A stretch of 64,000 bases of DNA from Rhodoferax sp. (GTDB lineage Bacteria; Pseudomonadota; Gammaproteobacteria; Burkholderiales; Burkholderiaceae_C): contig NZ_JAQURE010000011.1 in the NCBI RefSeq assembly GCF_028715765.1, positions 1 to 64,000 on the forward strand, written 5' to 3'. The notes under the pieces were generated by a model. It was not told the DNA's origin. It did no database searches and saw only the letters and a list, made by a program, of their open reading frames with translations. Below, piece by piece: positions 1-62,218 of this stretch. The position numbers were made by a program, and so were the translations under genes. Each line of letters starts with the position of its first letter. Position 1 is the stretch's first letter.

Positions 1-3000
1 GTCGAGATGCAGTTTTTAAGCGACGTGTACCTGCGTTGCCCGGACTGCGATGGCAAACGCTACCGCCCGGAAATCCTGGAAATCACGATTGAGCGCAGTG
101 GAGCAGAAATGGGGTCAGATCCCAATTCGGGTTACAGCCTCTCGCAAAAACCTGAACGCCGTCCCGAATTGGGCTCTGACCCCAGTTTTGCGGAGCCAGT
201 TAAAGCTAATGCTGATGTGGAGGTGGCTTTAACCCGCAGCGCACGCGGGATTTCTGAACAGTTGAGGACAGAGCTAAAGGTCTGTCCCGCAAGTCTCAAT
301 GACGCGGATGTCCCCCGGTCCGGGCTGCGCCCGAGCCTCCCCCTTGATTCCGCTACGTCAGACACCCCACGCACGCCGCTAGACGGTGCTGGTCAGTCAA
401 CGCATAACTGGGCTGCAGATAAGCGCGGCGATAGCCAAAGAGCTGAAATGGGGTCAGATCCCAATTCGGGCTACATCGGCAAGCAAAACCACAACCGCAT
501 CACCGATTTGGCAAAACCCCAAGTCCAGGGCTCTGACCCCGTTTCTGCGGTGCCAGTTAAAACCACTGTCGTCAGGCACCTCAACGTCGCCGACGTTTTA
601 GACCTGACCGTCAGCCAGGCCGCCGACCTGTTCCGCCACGACCGCGATGTCATCCGCGCGCTGCAACCGATCATCGACGTGGGTCTGGATTACGTCAAAC
701 TCGGCCAGCCCGTGCCCACGCTCAGCGGTGGTGAGGCGCAGCGCCTGAAACTCGCCGGTTTTCTTGCTGAAGCGGCCAAAACCAGCAGCGCCAGCCGCCA
801 AGCTTTGGCGCGCAAGGGCACGTTGTTCATGTTTGACGAGCCCACCACCGGCCTGCACTTTGACGACATTGCCAAACTCATGCGCGCTTTGCGCAAACTG
901 CAAGATGCCGGCCACAGCCTGCTGGTGATCGAGCACAACCTGGACGTGATACGCGCTGCCGACTGGCTCATCGACCTCGGCCCCGAGGGCGGCGATGCCG
1001 GTGGTGAGGTGGTGGCCTACGGCACGCCCGAAGACGTGATGCTGCACGCCACCAGCCACACCGCGCTGGCGCTGCGCGACTACGCCGCCCAAATGGGCGT
1101 GGTGCATGAGGTGCGCGAATTCGCCATGTCGCCAGCAGCCAGCCCTCACCCTAACCCTCCCCCAGCGGGGGAGGCAACGCCGGCTTTGGCGGTTGCTCCT
1201 TCCCGCCTTTGGGGGAAGGTTGGGATGGGGGCTTCGGCCACCCTAGCGGATCAAAAGCCATTCAATCATGCAACAGCGCAGCCAGCCACAAAGCTACTCT
1301 CAAATAGAGAGCTGTCTGCGCATATTCCATATGCGCTAGAGGCCAAAAACACCATACAAATCATCAACGCCCGCGAACACAACCTGAAAGGCCTGAGCGT
1401 CAACATTCCGCGCGGCCAGTTCACTGTGGTCACGGGGGTCAGCGGCTCGGGCAAGTCCACGCTGGCGTTTGACATTTTGTTCAACGAAGGGCAGCGGCGT
1501 TATCTGGAAAGCCTGAACGCCTATGCCCGCAGCATCGTGCAACCGGCCGGGCGGCCCGAGGTGGACGCGGTCTACGGCATTCCGCCCACGGTGGCGATTG
1601 AGCAGCGCTTGAGCCGTGGCGGGCGCAAAAGCACGGTCGGCACCACCACCGAAGTCTGGCATTTTTTGCGCCTGCTGTTTGTCAAACTCGGCACGCAGCA
1701 CTGCATCCACGACGGCACGCCAGTGGCGCCGCAAACGCCTGAGCGCATAGCCGCCACGCTGCTGCGCGATTTCAAAGGTCAGCACATTGGCCTGCTCAGC
1801 CCGTTGGTGATGAACCGAAAGGGTGTTTACACCGAGCTGGCCGAGTGGGCGCGCCCGCGCGGTTTCACCCACCTGCGCGTGGATGGCGAGTTTTTGCCCA
1901 CCACCGCGTTCCCGCGCATTGATCGGTTCAAAGAGCACACCATTGAGTTGCCGGTAATCAGCCTGGACGTGTTGCCAGACCAAGAAGCGCAACTGCGCGA
2001 TGCGTTGGCACGGGCGCTGCAACATGGCAAAGGCGTGGTGCATGTGTTGAGCCATCTGGTTGGCTTGTCTGAGGCCATGCAAGCCGGTGCGTCCACGGCG
2101 GGCATTGGCCGCTTGAGTGTGTTTTCGACCCTGCGCGCCTGCCCGGTGTGCAGCACCAGCTATGCCGAGCTCGACCCGCGCCTGTTCAGTTACAACAGCA
2201 AACACGGCTGGTGTCCGGACTGCGTCGGCACGGGCGTGGCCCTGACGCGTGAACAGCGCAAGGTGTTTGACGATTCGGCGCGAGACGACGAGCAAAAAGG
2301 CCGCGAGCAGACCTTTGCCGAAGCCGATGTGGAAGATTTGGTTGATGCCGTGTGCCCCACCTGCCATGGCACGCGCTTGAACGCGACAGCGCGCGCGGTG
2401 CGGCTCAAATTGGGGTCGGATCCCAATTCGGGCTCAATTCGTATTCAAGAGTCTAGGTTTCTCACCGAATTGGCAAAACCCCAAGTCCAGGGCTCTGACC
2501 CCAATTTCCCCACCGAGGCCAAAAATGCCCCAACGATCACCGACCTGGCGCGCCTGAGCGTGAGCGACTTGCGCGCCTGGGTGCAGCGCTTGCAGTCCGG
2601 GGCGCGATTAAGCGCGCGCGAGGCTGGCATTGCGCGCGACCTGATTCCCGAAATTCTGGGGCGGCTGCAGTTTCTGGAACAAGTCGGCCTGGGTTACCTG
2701 ACGCTGGACCGTGGCGCGCCCACCTTGAGCGGTGGCGAGGCTCAGCGCATCCGCCTGGCCGCGCAACTGGGCAGCAACCTGCAAGGCGTGTGCTACGTGC
2801 TCGACGAGCCCACCATTGGCCTGCACGCGCGTGACAACCAGATGCTGCTGGGCGCGTTGCAAACTTTGAGCGACCAGGGCAACACCCTGGTGGTGGTGGA
2901 GCACGACGAGGACACCATTCGCCATGCCTCTCACATCATCGACATTGGCCCCAGCGCTGGCAAACGCGGCGGGCAGCTGGTGGCGCAGGGTTCGGTGGCC

Positions 3001-4332
3001 GACATTGCGGCAGCGCCCGATTCGCAGACCGGCCGCTACCTGCTGCACGCCATGCGGCATCCGCTGCAGCCCCGGCGCAGGGTGTTGAATGATATGAATT
3101 CAATAGCTGCTTGCACTTTATTATCAAGGGCTAGATGCCAAAATGACGCTTTAAAACGTGAGGCGGTAGTGAATTTGGGGTCGGATCCCAATTTCGCCCA
3201 AAAGCCTTTGAAAAAAACCAAAGCGTCATCGAAATTGGGCTCTGACCCCAAGTTCACGGACCACGAAGTACAGCAGTGGCTGACCGTACACAACGCCTCC
3301 CTGCATAACCTGCAGCACGTCACCGCCCACATCCCCCTCAAGCGCTTGGTCGCCATCACTGGTGTCAGCGGCTCGGGCAAATCCACCCTGGCGCGTGACG
3401 TGTTGCTGGCCAACGTGCACACCGCCGTGCAAAAGCGCAGTACCAAAGCGGGTCGGGACGCGCTCGATGCCGGTGAGGCCATCGCCTGGGTTGGCTGTGA
3501 CAGCGTCACCGGGTTTGAAGCTGTAGACCGCGTGCTGGAAGTGGACCAAACCCCCATCGGCAAAACGCCGCGCAGTTGCCCTGCCACTTACATCGGCTTC
3601 TGGGACACCATCCGCAAGCTGTTTGCCGACACGCTGGAAGCCAAAGCGCGTGGCTACGCCGCCAACCGCTTCAGCTTCAACACCGGCGCGGGCCGCTGCC
3701 CCAGTTGCGAAGGGCAGGGCATCCGCACCATTGGTATGAGCTTCTTGCCCGACGTGAAAGTGCTGTGCGAAACCTGCAAGGGCGCACGCTTCAACCCCGA
3801 GACGCAGGCGGTGACCTGGCGCGGCAAAAACATTGGTGACATTTTGCAAATGGAAGTCGATGAAGCGGTGGACTTTTTTGCCGCCATGCCCAACATCAGC
3901 CACCCGCTGCAATTGTTGAAAGACGTGGGTCTGGGTTACCTGACGCTGGGGCAACCCTCGCCTACCCTGAGCGGTGGCGAGGCACAGCGCATCAAGCTGG
4001 TCACAGAGCTTTCCAAAGTGCGTGATGACATCACCCGCCGTGGCCAGAAAGCCCCGCACACGCTGTATGTGCTGGACGAGCCCACGGTGGGTCTGCACAT
4101 GGCGGACGTGGAAAAACTCATCAAGGTGCTGCACCGCCTGGTGGACGGCGGCCACAGCGTGGTGGTGATCGAGCACGACCTGGACGTGATCGCCGAGGCC
4201 GATTGGGTGCTGGACTTGGGGCCCGACGGTGGCAACGCCGGTGGCCGCGTGGTGGCGGCTTGCCCGCCTGAACAGGTGGTGGCGCAGGGCACGCACACCG
4301 GGGTAGCGCTGCGGGCGGTGCTGGCGCGTTGA
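1..4332 (+). CDS. uvrA: Double-length excinuclease ABC subunit A (UvrA, duplicated type), 5'-truncated by window edge, with several in-frame repeat insertions
   Basis: Multiple UvrA ABC signatures: [86 protein letters not shown]. Second full UvrA copy begins about nt 1350. Frame is open to the window start. Confidence 0.93.
106..189 (+). repeat. GSDPN element copy 1 (inverted-arm pair inside uvrA)
   Basis: GAAATGGGGTCAGATCCCAATTCGGG ... CCCGAATTGGGCTCTGACCCCAGTTTT; encodes MGSDPNSG...ELGSDPSF. Confidence 0.85.
445..547 (+). repeat. GSDPN element copy 2 (inside uvrA)
   Basis: GAAATGGGGTCAGATCCCAATTCGGGC ... TTGGCAAAACCCCAAGTCCAGGGCTCTGACCCCGTTT; the right 33-mer is identical to copy 3. Confidence 0.88.
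1144..1240. repeat. CCCTCACCCTAACCCTCCCCC-type inverted repeat inside uvrA linker
   Basis: CCCTCACCCTAACCCTCCCCCAGCGGGGGAGG ... TTCCCGCCTTTGGGGGAAGGTTGGGATGGGGGC. Confidence 0.75.
1291..1348 (+). repeat. GCTAGAGGCC-family repeat (in uvrA linker)
   Basis: AGCTACTCTCAAATAGAGAGCTGTCTGCGCATATTCCATATGCGCTAGAGGCCAAAA; GCGCATAT-TCC-ATATGCGC palindrome. Confidence 0.8.
2406..2507 (+). repeat. GSDPN element copy 3 (inside uvrA)
   Basis: AAATTGGGGTCGGATCCCAATTCGGGC ... TTGGCAAAACCCCAAGTCCAGGGCTCTGACCCCAATTTC. Confidence 0.88.
3101..3145 (+). repeat. GCTAGAGGCC-family repeat (in uvrA linker)
   Basis: CAATAGCTGCTTGCACTTTATTATCAAGGGCTAGATGCCAAAATGAC. Confidence 0.75.
3172..3255 (+). repeat. GSDPN element copy 4 (inside uvrA)
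   Basis: AATTTGGGGTCGGATCCCAATTT ... GAAATTGGGCTCTGACCCCAAGTTC; encodes NLGSDPNF...KLGSDPKF. Confidence 0.86.
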
Positions 4333-5141: not shown

Positions 5142-5161
5142 GTTTCAAAATGCTAGTTAAG

Positions 5162-5204
5162 TTGTAGCTGTTTAAGCATATAAATAAAGGGCTAGAGGCC
5201 AAAA
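5162..5204 (+). repeat. GCTAGAGGCC-family repeat (5' leader of HDAC gene)
   Basis: TTGTAGCTGTTTAAGCATATAAATAAAGGGCTAGAGGCCAAAATC. Confidence 0.78.
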
Positions 5205-5206
5205 TC

Positions 5207-6256
5207 ATGCATATTTTTTACAACCATCAGCACGCCTTGCACCAAGGCAAAGTCGAGATGTTTCGCGGCGAACTGGTGCCGTGTTTTGAAGTGCCCGCGC
5301 GTGTTGACCATGTGCTGGCCGAGCTGCAACGCCGCCGCTTTGGCACGCTGCAAGCGCCGCAAACTTTTGACGACGCGGTGCTGGCTCGCATCCACAGCCC
5401 GCGCTACCTGGATTTTTTGCAGCATGCCTGGGACGAATGGGTGGCGCTGGACGCAGCCAACGCCGCGCGTGACGCACTGCCTTCGGTGTGGCCGGTGCGC
5501 ACCCTGCGCAGTGACGTGTTGCCAGCCAATTTTGCGGCGCGCTTGGGGCTATTTTCGATGGATGCCGGTTCGCCCTTGACCTCTGGCACCTGGGCCGCAG
5601 CGCGCGCCGGGGCCGATTGCGCTTTGAGTGCCGCCAGCCATGTGGCGGCCGGTGCACGCTCTGCCTTTGTCCTGACGCGTCCGCCGGGTCACCACGCCGG
5701 AGCCGATTTTTTTGGCGGCTATTGTTTCTTAAACAACGCCGCGCTGGCCGCGCAGCAGCTGCGTGACCAGGGCGCGGCGCGGGTGGCGGTGCTGGACCTG
5801 GACTACCACCACGGCAACGGCACGCAAGCCATTTTTTATGAACGCGCTGACGTGTTTTTTGCCAGCATCCACGGCGACCCGCACACCGAATACCCGTTTT
5901 ACCTGGGCTATGCCGACGAGCGGGGTGCGGGGTCGGGCTTGGGCTTTAACCGCAACCTGCCGCTGCCGCGCGGCACGGACTTTGCTGTGTGGCGGCAGGC
6001 GCTGGCCGCTGCGTTGCAAGACATCCAAGCCTTTGGCGCGCAGGCGCTGGTGGTGTCGCTGGGCCTGGACACGTTTGCCGGCGACCCGATCTCAGGGTTC
6101 AAGCTCGCCAGTAACGACTACCTGCGCGTGGGGGAAGACCTGGCGCGTGCCGGTCTGCCCACGGTCTTGGTGTTTGAAGGTGGCTATGCGGTGGCTGAGG
6201 TAGGGGTCAACGCGGTGAATGTGTTGCAGGGTTTCATGCAAACGTCAAAACCATAA
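5207..6256 (+). CDS. Histone deacetylase family protein
   Basis: RPPGHHAGADFFGGYCFLNNAALAA, DLDYHHGNGTQAIFYER, SLGLDTFAGDP: class II HDAC/AcuC-type motifs. Confidence 0.93.
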   Translation: MHIFYNHQHALHQGKVEMFRGELVPCFEVPARVDHVLAELQRRRFGTLQAPQTFDDAVLARIHSPRYLDFLQHAWDEWVALDAANAARDALPSVWPVRTLRSDVLPANFAARLGLFSMDAGSPLTSGTWAAARAGADCALSAASHVAAGARSAFVLTRPPGHHAGADFFGGYCFLNNAALAAQQLRDQGAARVAVLDLDYHHGNGTQAIFYERADVFFASIHGDPHTEYPFYLGYADERGAGSGLGFNRNLPLPRGTDFAVWRQALAAALQDIQAFGAQALVVSLGLDTFAGDPISGFKLASNDYLRVGEDLARAGLPTVLVFEGGYAVAEVGVNAVNVLQGFMQTSKP

Positions 6257-7221: not shown

Positions 7222-7276
7222 TTGCTATTGAATAAAGAGCTATCTAAACTTATTTGACGGGTTCTAGAGGCTTATT
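7221..7276 (+). repeat. GCTAGAGGCC-family repeat (3' of parA-like gene)
   Basis: ATTGCTATTGAATAAAGAGCTATCTAAACTTATTTGACGGGTTCTAGAGGCTTATTTG. Confidence 0.6.
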
Positions 7277-7300
7277 TGCCTTGCGGTTTAGGCGTTGATG

Positions 7301-14361: not shown

Positions 14362-14387
14362 CTGCAGACGGGTCAGTTGGTTATGAG

Positions 14388-14446
14388 CAAATTATGCCTC
14401 TAGCGCTTATGATTCATGCCCAAATAGCTATTAAATAAATAGCTTT
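14388..14446 (-). repeat. GCTAGAGGCC-family repeat (between HK and yegD)
   Basis: ATGCCTCTAGCGCTTATGATTCATGCCCAAATAGCTATTAAATAAATAGCTTTTAAGCG (reverse orientation). Confidence 0.75.
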
Positions 14447-18425: not shown

Positions 18426-19844
18426 ATGACTCTTAAAAAAATAGCTGCTCACGCTTTCATATCAAGCGCCACAGCCTTATTTCTTATAAATTCTGCATGG
18501 GCTGCCATTCCCATTGAGCACTGGACGCAGCCCCAGGGTGCCCAGGTTTTTCTGGTGCAAAACCACGCCATTCCGATGGTGGATGTGCAGCTGGACTTTG
18601 ACGCCGGCAGCCGCCGCGACCCCGCGTCTCAGGCCGGCTTAGCCACGGTCACGTCGGCCATGATGTCCAAAGGGCTGCAAGCTGGCACGGCCAGCGCCGA
18701 GCCTGCCATGGATGAAAACGCCTTGGGCGAAGCGTGGGCAGACCTGGGTGCCCATTTTGGCGGCCATGCCAGCACCGACCGCATGAGCTTTGCCCTGCGC
18801 TCCTTGGCTTACCCTGAGTTGCTGGCGCAGGCCGCGGCACTGGCTTCACGGCAGCTGGCGCAACCGGCCTTTCCGGCAGCGGTCTGGCAGCGTGAACGCG
18901 AGGCCATGCAAGCCTCCATCCGCGAGGCCAACACCCGCCCCGCCACGGTGGCCGGCCGAGCCTTCAACCAAGCCGTTTATGGGACACACCCTTATGGGTT
19001 TGAAGTCACGCCTGAGACCCTGGCCGCCATTGACGTGCGCGCCATGGCGGATTTGCATCAACGCAGCGTGCTGGCGTGCCGCGCCACCGTGACGGTGGTG
19101 GGGGCGGTGACCCGTGACCAGGCTGACGCACTGGTCAGCACGCTGCTGTCGCGCCTGGCACCTGCGCCCAAGCCCGCTTCAACCGGAGCCCACAGTTGTC
19201 CGGCGCTGCCCGCTGTGGCAGACATTGCGGCGCTGACGCAAGCCATTGAGTCGCGCTTGGCGTTTGATTCGGCCCAGGCGCATGTGCTGATGGGGCAACC
19301 TGGCTTCAAACGCAACGACCCCGATTTTTTGGCCTTGACGGTGGGCAACTACATTCTGGGTGGCGGTGGTTTTGTCTCGCGCCTGACCGAAGAAGTGCGT
19401 GAAAAACGGGGCTTGAGCTACAGCGTGTACAGCTACTTTGCCCCGGCCATGCACGCGGGCGCCTTCACCATTGGTTTGCAAACCCGGCCCGACCAGGCCG
19501 AGCAGGCCTTGCAAGTGGCGCGTGAGGTGCTGGCGCGTTTTGTCAGCGAAGGCCCCACTGAGGCCGAACTCCAGGCCGCCAAAGCCAATTTGATCGGTGG
19601 TTTTGCCTTGCGACTGGACAGCAACCGCAAGCTGCTTGACAACGTGGCCAACATCGCCTGGAACAAGTTGCCGTTGAATTATTTGGACACTTGGACACAG
19701 CATGTTGAGCAACTGACCACAGAGCAAATTCGTGCCGCTTTTGCGCGCAAATTGCAGCCGCAACGCATGGCCACCGTGGTGCTGGGTGCTGCTGCGGCTA
19801 CACCTGCACCTGCAATATCTGTATCAACTGCAGTAACGCAGTGA
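18426..19844 (+). CDS. M16 family peptidase-like partner (lacks HxxEH)
   Basis: GGGGFVSRLTEEVREKRGLSYSVYSYF; signal peptide MTLKKIAAHAFISSATALFLINSAWA; follows the M16 peptidase. Confidence 0.9.
   Translation: MTLKKIAAHAFISSATALFLINSAWAAIPIEHWTQPQGAQVFLVQNHAIPMVDVQLDFDAGSRRDPASQAGLATVTSAMMSKGLQAGTASAEPAMDENALGEAWADLGAHFGGHASTDRMSFALRSLAYPELLAQAAALASRQLAQPAFPAAVWQREREAMQASIREANTRPATVAGRAFNQAVYGTHPYGFEVTPETLAAIDVRAMADLHQRSVLACRATVTVVGAVTRDQADALVSTLLSRLAPAPKPASTGAHSCPALPAVADIAALTQAIESRLAFDSAQAHVLMGQPGFKRNDPDFLALTVGNYILGGGGFVSRLTEEVREKRGLSYSVYSYFAPAMHAGAFTIGLQTRPDQAEQALQVAREVLARFVSEGPTEAELQAAKANLIGGFALRLDSNRKLLDNVANIAWNKLPLNYLDTWTQHVEQLTTEQIRAAFARKLQPQRMATVVLGAAAATPAPAISVSTAVTQ
18436..18490 (+). 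repeat. GCYACAGSC-variant repeat encoding M16 signal peptide
   Basis: AAAATAGCTGCTCACGCTTTCATATCAAGCGCCACAGCCTTATTTCTTATAAAT. Confidence 0.65.
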
Positions 19845-20047: not shown

Positions 20048-20092
20048 ACCACGCCTTATCTGTGTGGATGGTGCGTTGTCAAATTACCAAAA

Positions 20093-20148
20093 TTCATAGC
20101 TGCTTATGCTTATTGGATATGGGCTACAGGCTGTTTTCTTATAAATTT
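20093..20148 (+). repeat. GCTACAGGC-variant repeat (intergenic before rsmD)
   Basis: TTCATAGCTGCTTATGCTTATTGGATATGGGCTACAGGCTGTTTTCTTATAAATTTT. Confidence 0.72.
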
Positions 20149-22224: not shown

Positions 22225-22677
22225 TCAAAATGTTGTGGTCACGGCCGTTTTTCTTGTCTTTTTGCTGACCTTTTTCTTCTCGCTACCGGGTATTTCAGCA
22301 ATGAAGGCCTCCGGTTTTTTGCCAGGTTTTTTCAGCCGCTTCGGTGTGATCACGGTCATCTGTGGTTGCGGTGTGGGCAGTTGCGCTGCCACAGGTGTTT
22401 TCGCCGGGCTATTGACCTGTTTGGCCGCGATTTTTTCGTTGGCAAGGCGCATTTTTTCAAGTTGCCTGGCTTGCACGGCATCTTGTGATGCGGCACGGCG
22501 GGTTTGCGCTTGTTGCGCCGTGGTGCGCTCGTCACTCACATCCAAGGTTTGTCCGTTGGCGCACGGCGTGCTGCTGTAGCTGTTGCCGCATTTATAAACA
22601 TTTTCGGCTGTGGCGCTTACGGAATAAGCACTGATAGCTATGAATAATGAAGTTAAAAAAGCACGGGTGAGCTTCAT
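22225..22677 (-). CDS. DUF4124-like exported protein
   Basis: Signal peptide followed by [18 protein letters not shown]. Confidence 0.65.
22590..22655 (-). repeat. GCYACAGSC-variant repeat encoding DUF4124 protein signal peptide
   Basis: Minus strand TTCATAGCTATCAGTGCTTATTCCGTAAGCGCCACAGCCGAAAATG; shares AAGCGCCACAGCC with 18464-18476. Confidence 0.55.
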
Positions 22678-26178: not shown

Positions 26179-26694
26179 TTAGTTGTCCAAAATCACACGC
26201 AATTGCGCTTCGGGCGCAGGGGTCAATCTTTGAGCTGTGATTTTGCCTTGGTTGAATTGCGTCAAGTCGACATCCCAGCCAGCTGCAGTGAGTGACTGCC
26301 CTTTGAGCCAGGAAAAAAAGGCTGTGACCGGTACCTCGGTGCCTAGCATGTGTATGGTCAAGGGAGCCAGGCCGTTGAACTGGTGCGTCTCACCACGAGC
26401 GGTGAGTTGGGCAGATTCAGGCGTCCAGCGAATGACCGCGGCTGTGCTGCCCAGCGGGGTGTAAAAATTCAAGCTGCCTTGTTGGGCGTCGCCTTGCAGA
26501 TCAAATGCGGCTGAAAAAGACTGTGGCTGTGACTGTGGGTCTGCCGGGTCAGGCTGAACGTGCATGGACAAGCGCCCTTGCCAACTTGAAATATTTTGAT
26601 CATTTCGGCTTGTAGGCCTAGTGGTGCTTGCACAACCAGCTATGAAAATTAAAGCAATGAAAATCCAGCACCAAGAGCTGATCTGACGCTTCAC
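26179..26694 (-). CDS. lolB: Outer-membrane lipoprotein receptor LolB
   Basis: Lipobox IAGC; WQGRLSMHV...FDLQGDAQQGSLNFYTPLGSTAAVIRWTP; ispE-lolB synteny. Confidence 0.9.
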   Translation of the reverse strand: MKRQISSWCWIFIALIFIAGCASTTRPTSRNDQNISSWQGRLSMHVQPDPADPQSQPQSFSAAFDLQGDAQQGSLNFYTPLGSTAAVIRWTPESAQLTARGETHQFNGLAPLTIHMLGTEVPVTAFFSWLKGQSLTAAGWDVDLTQFNQGKITAQRLTPAPEAQLRVILDN

Positions 26695-43961: not shown

Positions 43962-44690
43962 ATGACTGAATTTTCTAGAACCCAAGGCCGCTTGGCCAAT
44001 GCGCTGCGCCCAGTGCGCCTGACCCGCGCTTACACCCTGCACGCCGAAGGCTCGGTGTTGATCGAGTTTGGCCACACCAAAGTGCTGTGCAATGCCTCGG
44101 TGCTCGACAAAGTGCCGCCGCACCAAAAAGGCCGCGGCCTTGGCTGGGTCACCGCCGAATACGGCATGCTGCCACGCGCCACCCACAGCCGCAGCGACCG
44201 CGAAGCCGCGCGCGGCAAGCAAACCGGACGCACACAAGAAATTCAGCGTTTGATCGGCCGTGCCCTGCGCTCGGTGTTTGACCTCAGCCTGCTCGGCGAG
44301 CGCACCTTGCACCTTGATTGCGACGTGCTGCAAGCCGATGGCGGCACCCGCACGGCGGCCATCACCGGCGCCTTTGTCGCTGCGCAAGATGCTGTCAATG
44401 GCTTGCTGGCGGCGGGTAAATTGACGCAGTCGCCGATTCGTGAAGCGGTGGCGGCCATCTCGGTTGGCATGGTGCAAGGCACGCCGTTGCTCGACCTGGA
44501 ATATGTTGAAGATGCCGCTTGCGACACCGACATGAACGTGGTCATGACCGCCAGCGGGCATTTTGTCGAGCTGCAAGGCACAGCCGAAGGTGCGCCCTTT
44601 AGCCGCACCGAAATGGATCAACTCTTGAACTTGGCCGACCAAGGCATTCGTGAGCTGATTCTGTTGCAGCAAGAATCGCTCTCTAAATAA
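43962..44690 (+). CDS. rph: Ribonuclease PH
   Basis: [77 protein letters not shown]. Confidence 0.97.
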
Positions 44691-44732
44691 GAGCTACTCA
44701 CGCACTAACCATAAGCGCTAGAGGTCTATTTG
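44681..44732 (+). repeat. GCTAGAGGCC-family repeat (between rph and rdgB)
   Basis: CTCTAAATAAGAGCTACTCACGCACTAACCATAAGCGCTAGAGGTCTATTTGTT. Confidence 0.78.
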
Positions 44733-44734
44733 TT

Positions 44735-45337
44735 ATGAAAATTGTATTGGCATCCAACAACCCCGGGAAATTGGTTGAGTTGCAAGCCATGTTGGCGCCG
44801 CTGCAGCTGGAGCTGGTGACCCAAGGCAGCCTGGGCATTCCTGAAGCGGCCGAGCCGTTTCACACCTTCATTGAAAACGCTTTGGCCAAAGCGCGTCACG
44901 CGGCGCATTTGAGCGGCCTGCCGGCCATGGCCGATGACGCCGGTTTGTGCGTGGATGCCTTTGGCGGCTTGCCGGGGGTGGACACCGCTTATTACGCCAC
45001 CCAGTTTGGCTACGCCAAAAGCGACGCCAACAACGTGCGTGCCCTGTTGGAGCAAATGCAAGGCATTGACAACCGGCGCGCCGCCATGGTCAGCACACTG
45101 GTGGCGCTGCGCTCAGCCGACGACCCCGAGCCACTGGTGGCGGTGGGGCGGGTGGTGGGCGACATCACCCAGGCGCCGATGGGTAGCAACGGCTTTGGCT
45201 TTGACCCGGTGATGTGGTTGCCCGAATTCGGCCAAACCTTTGCCCAGTTGCCCACCGAAGTTAAAAATGCCCACAGCCACCGCGGCCGCGCCGTGGCCGC
45301 CATGGTGGCGCTGATGCGTGAGCGCTGGCAGATTTGA
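44735..45337 (+). CDS. rdgB: XTP/dITP diphosphatase (RdgB/HAM1)
   Basis: MKIVLASNNPGKLVELQAML ... FIENALAKARHAAHLSGLPAMADDAGLCVDAFGGLPGVDTAYYA. Confidence 0.96.
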   Translation: MKIVLASNNPGKLVELQAMLAPLQLELVTQGSLGIPEAAEPFHTFIENALAKARHAAHLSGLPAMADDAGLCVDAFGGLPGVDTAYYATQFGYAKSDANNVRALLEQMQGIDNRRAAMVSTLVALRSADDPEPLVAVGRVVGDITQAPMGSNGFGFDPVMWLPEFGQTFAQLPTEVKNAHSHRGRAVAAMVALMRERWQI

Positions 45338-47444: not shown

Positions 47445-47458
47445 TTTTTATATAAGAA

Positions 47459-47520
47459 ATAGGCCTCTAGAGCCCATGTATAAAGCGTGGACAGCTATTT
47501 AAAATATAGCTTTCCACGCT
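47459..47520 (-). repeat. GCTAGAGGCC-family repeat (htpG 3' region)
   Basis: ATAGGCCTCTAGAGCCCATGTATAAAGCGTGGACAGCTATTTAAAATATAGCT (reverse orientation). Confidence 0.75.
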
Positions 47521-48632: not shown

Positions 48633-49709
48633 TTACACCGCCAGCGGCGGCTGTTGCATGGCTTCCAACTGGTCTTGCAGCATGACCACCTGGCCTTGCC
48701 AATAGTCGCTGCTGCCGAACCAGGGAAAGTTGATGGCAAAAATGGGGTCTTCCCAGCGCCGCGCCAGCCACGCGCTGTAGTGCAGCAAGCGCAGTGTGCG
48801 CAGCGGCTCCAGCAACGCCAGTTCGCGTGCATCAAAGGGGCGAAACTGCTCGTAGCCGTCCACCAGCGCGGCCAGTTGCCGGGTTTGTTGCGCCCGGTCG
48901 CCGCTCAGCAGCATCCACAGATCTTGCACCGCCGGGCCACTGCGGCAGTCGTCCAGGTCGACAAAATGCGGGCCGGGCAGCTGGCTGGCAGGCACCTCCA
49001 GCGGTGTCCACAAAATGTTGCCGGGGTGGCAGTCGCCGTGCAGGCGCAGCGTCTGCATGGCGCTGGCACCTGGGTTGGCCTCGTTCGTTAAATTATTTAA
49101 GTCTTTTTGGCCTCTAGCGCCCGTCAATAGGGCATGAGTAGCTATCAAATCAATGGCGTCTTGGGCAGCCTTGGCCCAGGCGCTTTGCACATCCAGCGGC
49201 ACTTTGTCATGACCCAGCAGCCAGTCGCGCGCGGCCACGCCAAAGCTGGCCACATCCAGCGCCGGGCGGTGGACAAAGGGGTGTGCCGTGCCCACGCTGT
49301 GGATGCGTGCCAAAAAACGGCCAATCCACTCCAACACCTCACCGTCTTCCAGTTCGGGCTGGCGGCCACCGCGCCATGGGCTCACGCTGAAGTCAAAGCC
49401 ACCATGGTGGTGCAGCGTCTGGCCGTTCAGCATCAGCGGTGCCACCACCGGAATTTCTGCCGCAGCCAGCTCGGCTGAAAATGCATGCTCTTCTTCAATT
49501 TGCGCCCGGGTCCAGCGCTGCGGGCGGTAAAACTTGGCCACCACCTTGCGGCCATCGTCCAAGTGGGCTTGGTAAACCCGGTTTTCGTAAGAGCTCAAGG
49601 CCATTTGCCGGCCGTCGCCCAGCAGCCCCACGCTGGCCAGCGCGTCTTGCACCACATCGGGCGTGAGTGCCTGAAACGGGTGGCTTGCGGTGGGCGAGGT
49701 GCTAGGCAT
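48633..49709 (-). CDS. srkA: Serine/threonine protein kinase SrkA/YihE-like
   Basis: FQALTPDVVQDALASVGLLGDGRQMALSSYENRVYQAHLDDGRKVVAKFYRPQRWT; LHGDCHPGNILW; FVDLDDCRSGPAVQDLWMLLSG. Confidence 0.93.
   Translation of the reverse strand: MPSTSPTASHPFQALTPDVVQDALASVGLLGDGRQMALSSYENRVYQAHLDDGRKVVAKFYRPQRWTRAQIEEEHAFSAELAAAEIPVVAPLMLNGQTLHHHGGFDFSVSPWRGGRQPELEDGEVLEWIGRFLARIHSVGTAHPFVHRPALDVASFGVAARDWLLGHDKVPLDVQSAWAKAAQDAIDLIATHALLTGARGQKDLNNLTNEANPGASAMQTLRLHGDCHPGNILWTPLEVPASQLPGPHFVDLDDCRSGPAVQDLWMLLSGDRAQQTRQLAALVDGYEQFRPFDARELALLEPLRTLRLLHYSAWLARRWEDPIFAINFPWFGSSDYWQGQVVMLQDQLEAMQQPPLAV
49088..49150 (-). repeat. GCTAGAGGCC-family repeat inside srkA coding sequence
   Basis: Minus strand TTTGATAGCTACTCATGCCCTATTGACGGGCGCTAGAGGCCAAAAAGACTTAAATAATTT; encodes LIATHALLTGARGQKDLNN. 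Confidence 0.82.
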
Positions 49710-55709: not shown

Positions 55710-56555
55710 TCAGCCCCGAAAGCGTTTGCGCGTGAGCGCCAGCGCCACCCAAAAACCCACCACGGCGTAGGTCGCCAACACCGCCAGCGGGCGCAGCCAT
55801 TGCGCTGGCCATTGGTCCATGAATAGCGGGCGCACCAGCGCCACGGCGTTGGTCAGTGGCAGCCAGTCAGACACCATGCGCACCACGCTGGGCAGCTGTT
55901 CCAGCGGGAAAAAAATGCCGCTCAGAAACATCATGGGAGTTAAAAACAGCGTGAAGTAATAGGTGAAAAAGTCGTAGCCCTTGGCCAGCGCGTTAAAGAT
56001 CAGCGCGACACAGCTGAAGGTGATGCCCACCCCCAGCAGCACCGGCCAGGCCACCAGCAGTTTGGGGCTGTGGCTGATGCCCAAGCCCAGCATCACCCCC
56101 AAAATGGCGGTCACGGTAAACAGCGACTTGAACGCCGCCCACAGCATTTCAGCCAGCACAATGTCGTCGAGCGTGACCGGTGCGTTCATGATGCCGTCCC
56201 AGGTTTTCTGCACATGCATGCGGCTAAAGGCCGAGTACAAAGCCTCAAAACTGGCGGCATTCATGGCGCTCATGCAAATGCTGCCACTGGCCAAAAACAA
56301 GATGTAAGGCACTGGCACGCCGTCCACGCTGATTTGCCCCACCAGCGCACCCATGCCGTAGCCAAACGCCACCAGCCACATCAGTGGCTCGGCAATGTTG
56401 CCCACCAGGCTGGGAATGGCGAGCTTTTTCCACACCAGCCAGTTGCGCAAAAACACCGGCCACCAGCGCATGGAGAGTTTGGGATAGCTCCAAACTGATG
56501 TATCTTTTTGGCCTCTAGCGCTTATGGATATTGCTTTAGCAGCTTCTTTATTCAT
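55710..56555 (-). CDS. ABC-2 type transporter permease (NodJ-like)
   Basis: Membrane protein of about 280 aa, downstream of the NodI-like ATPase; PVTLDDIVLAEMLWAAFKSLF, FLSGIFFPLEQLP. Confidence 0.9.
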   Translation of the reverse strand: MNKEAAKAISISARGQKDTSVWSYPKLSMRWWPVFLRNWLVWKKLAIPSLVGNIAEPLMWLVAFGYGMGALVGQISVDGVPVPYILFLASGSICMSAMNAASFEALYSAFSRMHVQKTWDGIMNAPVTLDDIVLAEMLWAAFKSLFTVTAILGVMLGLGISHSPKLLVAWPVLLGVGITFSCVALIFNALAKGYDFFTYYFTLFLTPMMFLSGIFFPLEQLPSVVRMVSDWLPLTNAVALVRPLFMDQWPAQWLRPLAVLATYAVVGFWVALALTRKRFRG

Positions 56556-56557
56556 AG
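56502..56557 (-). repeat. GCTAGAGGCC-family repeat encoding N-terminus of ABC permease
   Basis: Minus strand ATGAATAAAGAAGCTGCTAAAGCAATATCCATAAGCGCTAGAGGCCAAAAAGAT = MNKEAAKAISISARGQKD. Confidence 0.82.
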
Positions 56558-62147: not shown

Positions 62148-62218
62148 AAAATATAAGCGTTTTAGGCCTCTAGAGCTTATGAAATAAGCTTAAGCAGCTA
62201 CTTAATAAATAGCATTTC
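62148..62218 (-). repeat. GCTAGAGGCC-family repeat (convergent gshA / M48 intergenic)
   Basis: ATATAAGCGTTTTAGGCCTCTAGAGCTTATGAAATAAGCTTAAGCAGCTACTTAATAAATAGC. Confidence 0.75.

Follow-up and report, generated by a model that had tools for sequence, protein, structure and literature searches.

Why should a stress-response kinase carry, in frame, a stretch of DNA that recurs in unrelated genes of the same genome, and how did that stretch come to lie there? The window, a stretch of 64,000 nucleotides that is part of a 3.41-Mb draft genome of Rhodoferax sp., contains a gene for the YihE/SrkA stress-response kinase (358 aa), which matches the NCBIfam equivalog PRK11768 over its full length (477 bits) and has a homologue in PDB 1zyl. 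Its nearest named relatives come from Rhodoferax and other Comamonadaceae. The original prediction that a repeat is translated inside SrkA stands, as the motif copy lies in frame within the full-length match, the predicted protein reading ...AIDLIATHALLTGARGQKDLN... across it. The gene and the motif copies of the window are as follows.

48633-49709, minus strand: srkA
49096-49156, minus strand: motif copy within srkA, in the frame here called ARG, encoding AIDLIATHALLTGARGQKDLN (nhmmer E 3e-9)
49109-49118: core GCTAGAGGCC of the srkA copy
1297-1357, plus strand: motif copy within a uvrA-type gene, in a different frame, overlooked in the original prediction
3092-3152, plus strand: motif copy within the same uvrA-type gene, in the ARG frame, as in srkA
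5153-5213, plus strand: intergenic copy
7225-7285, plus strand: intergenic copy
14382-14442, minus strand: intergenic copy
18430-18490, plus strand: copy overlapping the 5' end of a called gene, ARG frame, TLKKIAAHAFISSATALFLIN
20085-20145, plus strand: intergenic copy
22592-22652, minus strand: copy overlapping the end of a called gene, ARG frame
26594-26654, minus strand: intergenic copy, weak
44679-44739, plus strand: copy overlapping the 3' end of a called gene
47449-47509, minus strand: intergenic copy
56497-56557, minus strand: copy just upstream of an ABC-2 permease gene, probably untranslated
62152-62212, minus strand: intergenic copy, the genome's best match to the window model

Three of these copies are contained entirely within genes; the ARG frame is used by two of them and a different frame by the third. 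The same peptide had been expected in the same frame in two further proteins, and the uvrA-type gene bears this out, while the permease probably does not. The permease gene call begins at 56456 and the NodJ-family match at residue 28 of the open reading frame; we thus place this copy in the leader between two ABC genes and count it as probably non-coding. The uvrA-type gene, at the window edge (7-4332), also contains several GSDPN-encoding repeats (LGSDPN...) beside its two motif copies.

The motif is abundant well beyond the window. Its exact core GCTAGAGGCC occurs 93 times genome-wide, versus once for the reversed pattern, and an iterated nucleotide profile recovered 223 copies in a 1.25-Mb sample of the genome (60 stretches and the window) versus none in reversed sequence, which extrapolates to about 608 copies per genome. 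The profile consensus is CTATAAAATTAATAGCTGCTTGCGCTTATTTCATAAGCGCTAGAGGCCAATTTGTCATATA, with 21 of 61 positions G or C (about 34%). With a gene caller written for this analysis, which assigns 91% of bases as coding, the copies divide into 97 between genes, 39 across gene ends and 87 (39%) within genes. The motif occurs on both strands, and copies within genes are oriented either with the gene (42) or antisense to it (45). In 79 of these 87 copies the sequence on either side scores as coding in one frame, while third-position G+C is 0.73 in the flanks and drops to 0.30 within the motif. Proteins bearing the motif, as named by NCBIfam, include IleS, MurI, Cca (two copies), YidC, YggS, UvrC, MnmE, TrpA, RecB, LpxB, an asparaginase, PrmB, DapE, TilS, AroE, XdhA, MltG, MurU, PutA (three copies) and EarP (two copies). 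Genes with several copies include putA (three, L169:15087-18203), earP (two, L163:8764-9933) and the gene of a 1341-aa protein (three, L132:12517-16539).

Such recurrence is a property of the DNA. Synonymous recoding or permutation of the genes reduced 93 coding matches to between zero and one, and we therefore rejected a resemblance driven by the proteins; the motif is recognisable at the DNA level only. Information is concentrated in AGCT at columns 14-17, T at 20, GC at 24-25, G at 37, CTAGAGGC at 40-47, and A/T tracts at 50-53 and 61-62, giving a layout of about 50-60 bp that runs from an AT-rich tract through AGCT, T, GC, G and CTAGAGGC to an A/T-tract and AA. Two stems are apparent in the consensus. 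Neither covaries: in intergenic and coding copies alike, pairing is no better than with reshuffled partners (z at most 2.3 for any pair). Dependencies are strongest between neighbouring columns, mainly an alternation of AAA and TTT, which suggests shape-sensitive recognition of double-stranded DNA. The motif is linear and not palindromic. We accordingly rejected a palindromic or RNA element on the lack of covariation, and Rfam returns only tRNAs in the window. The earlier description of a coding palindromic family thus keeps its genome-wide coding repeat, 223 copies strong with 87 in genes, and loses its palindrome.

A central question is whether the motif was inserted into genes or formed within them. 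We compared five coding sites in four genes (aroE, dapE, srkA and both cca sites) with congeners having few or no copies. The window around the site is 21 residues long in all species but one for aroE, in all congeners but one for dapE, and in every congener that covers the second cca site. In srkA it spans 18-21 residues in motif-poor and 19-26 in motif-rich species, and the first cca site is more variable (13-21 residues against 21). In aroE there is no net length change in another family either, and gap-free alignments to solved homologues were obtained for LpxB, YggS and the second EarP copy. As motif-free coding windows are of nearly equal length in most congeners, these alignments show that the motif at the tested coding sites arose by point substitutions in homologous coding sequence, without insertion, and they suggest pre-motif ancestors of equal length at several sites. 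An insert in srkA with an empty site in its relatives had been anticipated; homologous coding sequence of nearly the same length lies there instead in motif-free congeners, and homologous, non-repeat segments largely occupy the other tested sites as well. Extra residues do accompany the motif in TilS (+6), TrpA (+18) and MnmE (+16), and SrkA has about 21 more residues than E. coli YihE in a structure-homologue comparison. Taken with the gap-free cases, this suggests that the motif becomes established in loops that tolerate it, some of which exceed the usual length, and the extra residues in TrpA, SrkA and MnmE mean that insertion may have taken place at some sites.

The srkA site is common to the Comamonadaceae, which have 8-19 extra residues there relative to other Burkholderiales families, in which the motif is missing. 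Among 88 Comamonadaceae, the motif isoleucine is encoded by ATA in 55 of 73 cases, compared with 3.6% of the isoleucines in the rest of those genes, and the alanine that follows it by GCT in 42 of 80, versus 4.1% elsewhere; tail probabilities for these counts overstate independence, because the 88 sequences share ancestry. The codon choices show that the DNA letters of the srkA motif are conserved across the family beyond protein constraint. In Delftia and Comamonas terrae the peptide is kept, but in GC-rich codons.

It had been proposed that one repeat frame is permissive for translation. The 87 coding copies instead use mainly two frames, one per strand: same-strand copies number 29 in frame 0 (ARG), 1 in frame 1 and 12 in frame 2, and antisense copies 5, 35 and 5. 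Taking as null the openness (freedom from stops) of each frame in intergenic copies, we expected 38.9, 9.9 and 1.5 on the same strand and 3.8, 9.9 and 22.9 on the antisense strand (chi-square 160). Against this null there is no ARG-frame excess (29 observed, 38.9 expected), and the ARG frame is common because it is most often open. The frames exceeding expectation are two others, antisense frame 1 (PLALxNKAQAAI-type peptides, about 3.5 times the prediction) and same-strand frame 2 (LQNxELxAHDxxGLEANF). Antisense frame 2 is avoided, lying about 4.6 times below prediction. Our guess is that these preferences are owed to peptide tolerance. Both observations that the original prediction had named as refuting it, homologous non-repeat segments in orthologues and a spread over frames, were largely made.

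Copies are spread through the genome more evenly than at random (CV 0.86, p 0.003). Pairs closer than 500 bp number 9 versus 19 expected (p 0.004) and those closer than 150 bp 2 versus 5.5, with no clustered, inverted or tandem arrays and almost always one copy per intergenic region. The longest motif-free stretch covers 80 kb (G000:C3:1-80239, L126-L129; p < 0.0002). Its first part is a prophage of about 40-50 kb with 65% G+C (terminase, portal, sheath, tape measure and primase genes) and its second a lower-G+C island resembling a surface-polysaccharide locus, with Wzt-type transport and glycosyltransferase genes. This one region is as expected from depletion of the motif in recently acquired DNA.

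Presence of the motif is patchy within the genus, with 12-13 species motif-rich and about 12 motif-poor, by a model built from this genome that could undercount strong dialects elsewhere. Mapping the rich and poor labels on the srkA tree needs at least three changes, and none of 16 genomes from other families has the motif. With srkA masked and in small samples, the consensus differs between the Rhodoferax, Acidovorax and Comamonas groups; the Acidovorax-group consensus, for example TTTCAATAGCTGCTAGCGCTTATCGGATAAGCGCTAGCAGCTATTTT, has 35 copies in 252 kb and none in reversed sequence. Two congeners (G017 and G020) have nearly identical SrkA proteins (branches 0.017 and 0.004) and motif counts of 5 versus 57, a contrast for which a recent loss of motifs, transfer of srkA or an effect of assembly could account.

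Together, these observations suggest that some process favours the motif's DNA letters themselves and would cause it to accumulate. The likeliest process would be sequence-biased uptake of self DNA followed by recombination, that is, molecular drive as for the uptake signal sequences (USS) of Pasteurellaceae and the DNA uptake sequences (DUS) of Neisseriaceae, in which alleles nearer the motif would be taken up more often and so replace others. Accumulation would extend into genes at any place where a reading frame and a loop can accommodate the peptide, and the translated peptides, ARGQKD included, would be tolerated by-products. We put the chance that this is an uptake-signal-like motif accumulated by molecular drive at about even. 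We propose it because uptake sequences share a point-mutational origin, occurrence on both strands and in coding and intergenic DNA, AT-tracts, dialects and depletion in acquired segments; the step from a driven DNA motif to an uptake signal is one that we infer. No report of natural competence in this genus was found in the open-access literature. ComEC and a GspH-type pilin are present in motif-rich and motif-poor congeners alike, and neither separates the two groups. The length of the motif, well above the 9-12 bp of known cores, also counts against the proposal.

The main rival is that the motif is a site for a chromosomal or regulatory protein, or an RNA 3'-end or termination signal, directly selected at each position, which we regard as unlikely, while ranking it ahead of the other alternatives. 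Divergent regions are strongly avoided, with copies in 7 of 101 such gaps versus 73 of 305 co-directional and 15 of 51 convergent ones, and intergenic copies in co-directional gaps lie close to stop codons, at a median of 13 nt from the end of the upstream gene. A linear site with A-tracts, DNA-level constraint and even spacing would fit this rival, and proximity to gene 3' ends together with the shunning of divergent promoters would also suit a role at RNA 3' ends. However, 39% of copies lie inside genes in either orientation, and copies antisense to the transcript do not suit an RNA signal. Some 600 individually selected 50-bp sites, many in housekeeping genes, would be costly, and about half of the congeners lack the motif.

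An inserted miniature mobile element, akin to a Rickettsia palindromic element, a REP or a MITE and landing in frame in many genes, seems improbable. High copy number, a consensus palindromic in appearance, extra residues at sites such as those in TrpA and SrkA, and the mainly intergenic placement of copies in other genera (33 of the 35 that the Acidovorax group has at loci other than srkA) would all fit such an element. Some intergenic copies are up to 90% identical (maximum 0.905, versus 0.76-0.83 under column shuffling), and thus some may be related by copying; coding copies reach 0.78, inside the shuffled range. The genome has a single Y1 transposase-like (RAYT-type) gene (G000:C23:38145-38846; L261:1462-2166) with a motif copy at its 3' end (L261:2158-2209). 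However, this protein occurs in nearly all congeners, at 66-82% identity and in motif-rich and motif-poor ones alike, and we rejected a RAYT mobiliser as it is present irrespective of motif abundance. No empty sites were seen at the compared positions, where the windows of motif-free congeners are nearly equal in length; several coding copies bring no net length change relative to other families or solved homologues, gaps occur in just 2 of the 223 copies, and covariation and clustering are lacking. On these alignments, insertion of a mobile element is already refuted for most of the five sites. Least probable, by a narrow step, are old insertions in an ancestor of the family, which gene conversion then homogenised in some lineages and which in others wore down into ordinary codons: the family-wide srkA copy with its extra residues and the GC-rich peptides of Delftia and Comamonas terrae would fit, but aroE, LpxB, YggS and the second EarP copy have no net insertion even relative to other families or distant homologues, and near-identical coding pairs are not in excess.

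Should the uptake-signal reading be true, it would show how uptake specificity originates, shifts in dialect and disappears, here among bacteria common in fresh water and soil, and a genus with both motif-rich and motif-poor species would help to find the receptor. Whatever the driver, hundreds of 50-bp signals apparently point-mutated into genes, at the DNA level and in several frames, illustrate cleanly how selection not aimed at proteins can shape them, and they caution against taking such segments for inserted peptides.

Comparison with known systems sets the motif apart from most of them. Rickettsia palindromic elements are repeat DNA translated within many unrelated proteins. The motif resembles them in that respect, but differs in having neither an insertion nor an empty site at the tested positions and no palindromic covariation, and in using several frames on both strands. 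Like REP/REPIN-RAYT systems and BIMEs it is short, numerous, often extragenic and avoids promoters; unlike them it shows no structural covariation, no clustering and no genus-wide tie to the Y1 transposase. BRE, an element of about 90 bp from Betaproteobacteria with 69% G+C, is arranged in tandem, has some coding copies and occurs four times in R. ferrireducens (PMC3110155). The present motif is likewise found in Betaproteobacteria and partly within coding sequence, but is dispersed, and its consensus (21/61 G+C) and lack of tandem clustering led us to reject identity with BRE, a distinction drawn from the description of BRE.

Fragments of the motif have already been published. Two unexplained motif pairs were listed in PMC5217627 (Table 7), GCTTAT(N)5AAGCG from Acidovorax ebreus (114 copies, 5 in genes) and ATAGCT(N)22CAAAAG from Polaromonas naphthalenivorans (125 copies, 18 in genes). 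The first lies within the present motif, as 49 of its 50 occurrences in the sampled genome fall within motif copies; the second is apparently a dialect, its spacing from ATAGCT to the second block matching that from ATAGCT to CTAGAG in the motif. They were not recognised there as one family, as evolving in place in genes or as uptake-like, and our search of the open-access literature turned up no account of the family, of how it evolves in place within genes or of a role in uptake.

The closest parallels are the uptake sequences. Strong sequence preference in DNA uptake is known from only two bacterial families (PMC7811141); known USS change by point mutation rather than insertion and are under-represented in acquired segments (PMC7811141), and dialects occur in both families (PMC3630211, PMC7811141). 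The motif resembles the USS of Pasteurellaceae and the DUS of Neisseriaceae in having hundreds or more copies, on both strands, inside and between genes (PMC7811141, PMC3630211, PMC2346458), and also in its point-mutational evolution at the tested sites, its lineage dialects and its depletion in acquired DNA, with AT-tract flanks as in USS. It differs in its unrelated sequence, in belonging to another family and in its length of about 50-60 bp, with conserved columns spread over about 50 bp versus a core of 9-12 bp. We tentatively suggest, at somewhat less than an even chance, that the Comamonadaceae may hold a third, independently evolved uptake-sequence system, with the longest uptake motif known (about 50 bp), lineage dialects, recurrent loss inside a single genus, and copies by the hundred accommodated in two main frames of housekeeping proteins.
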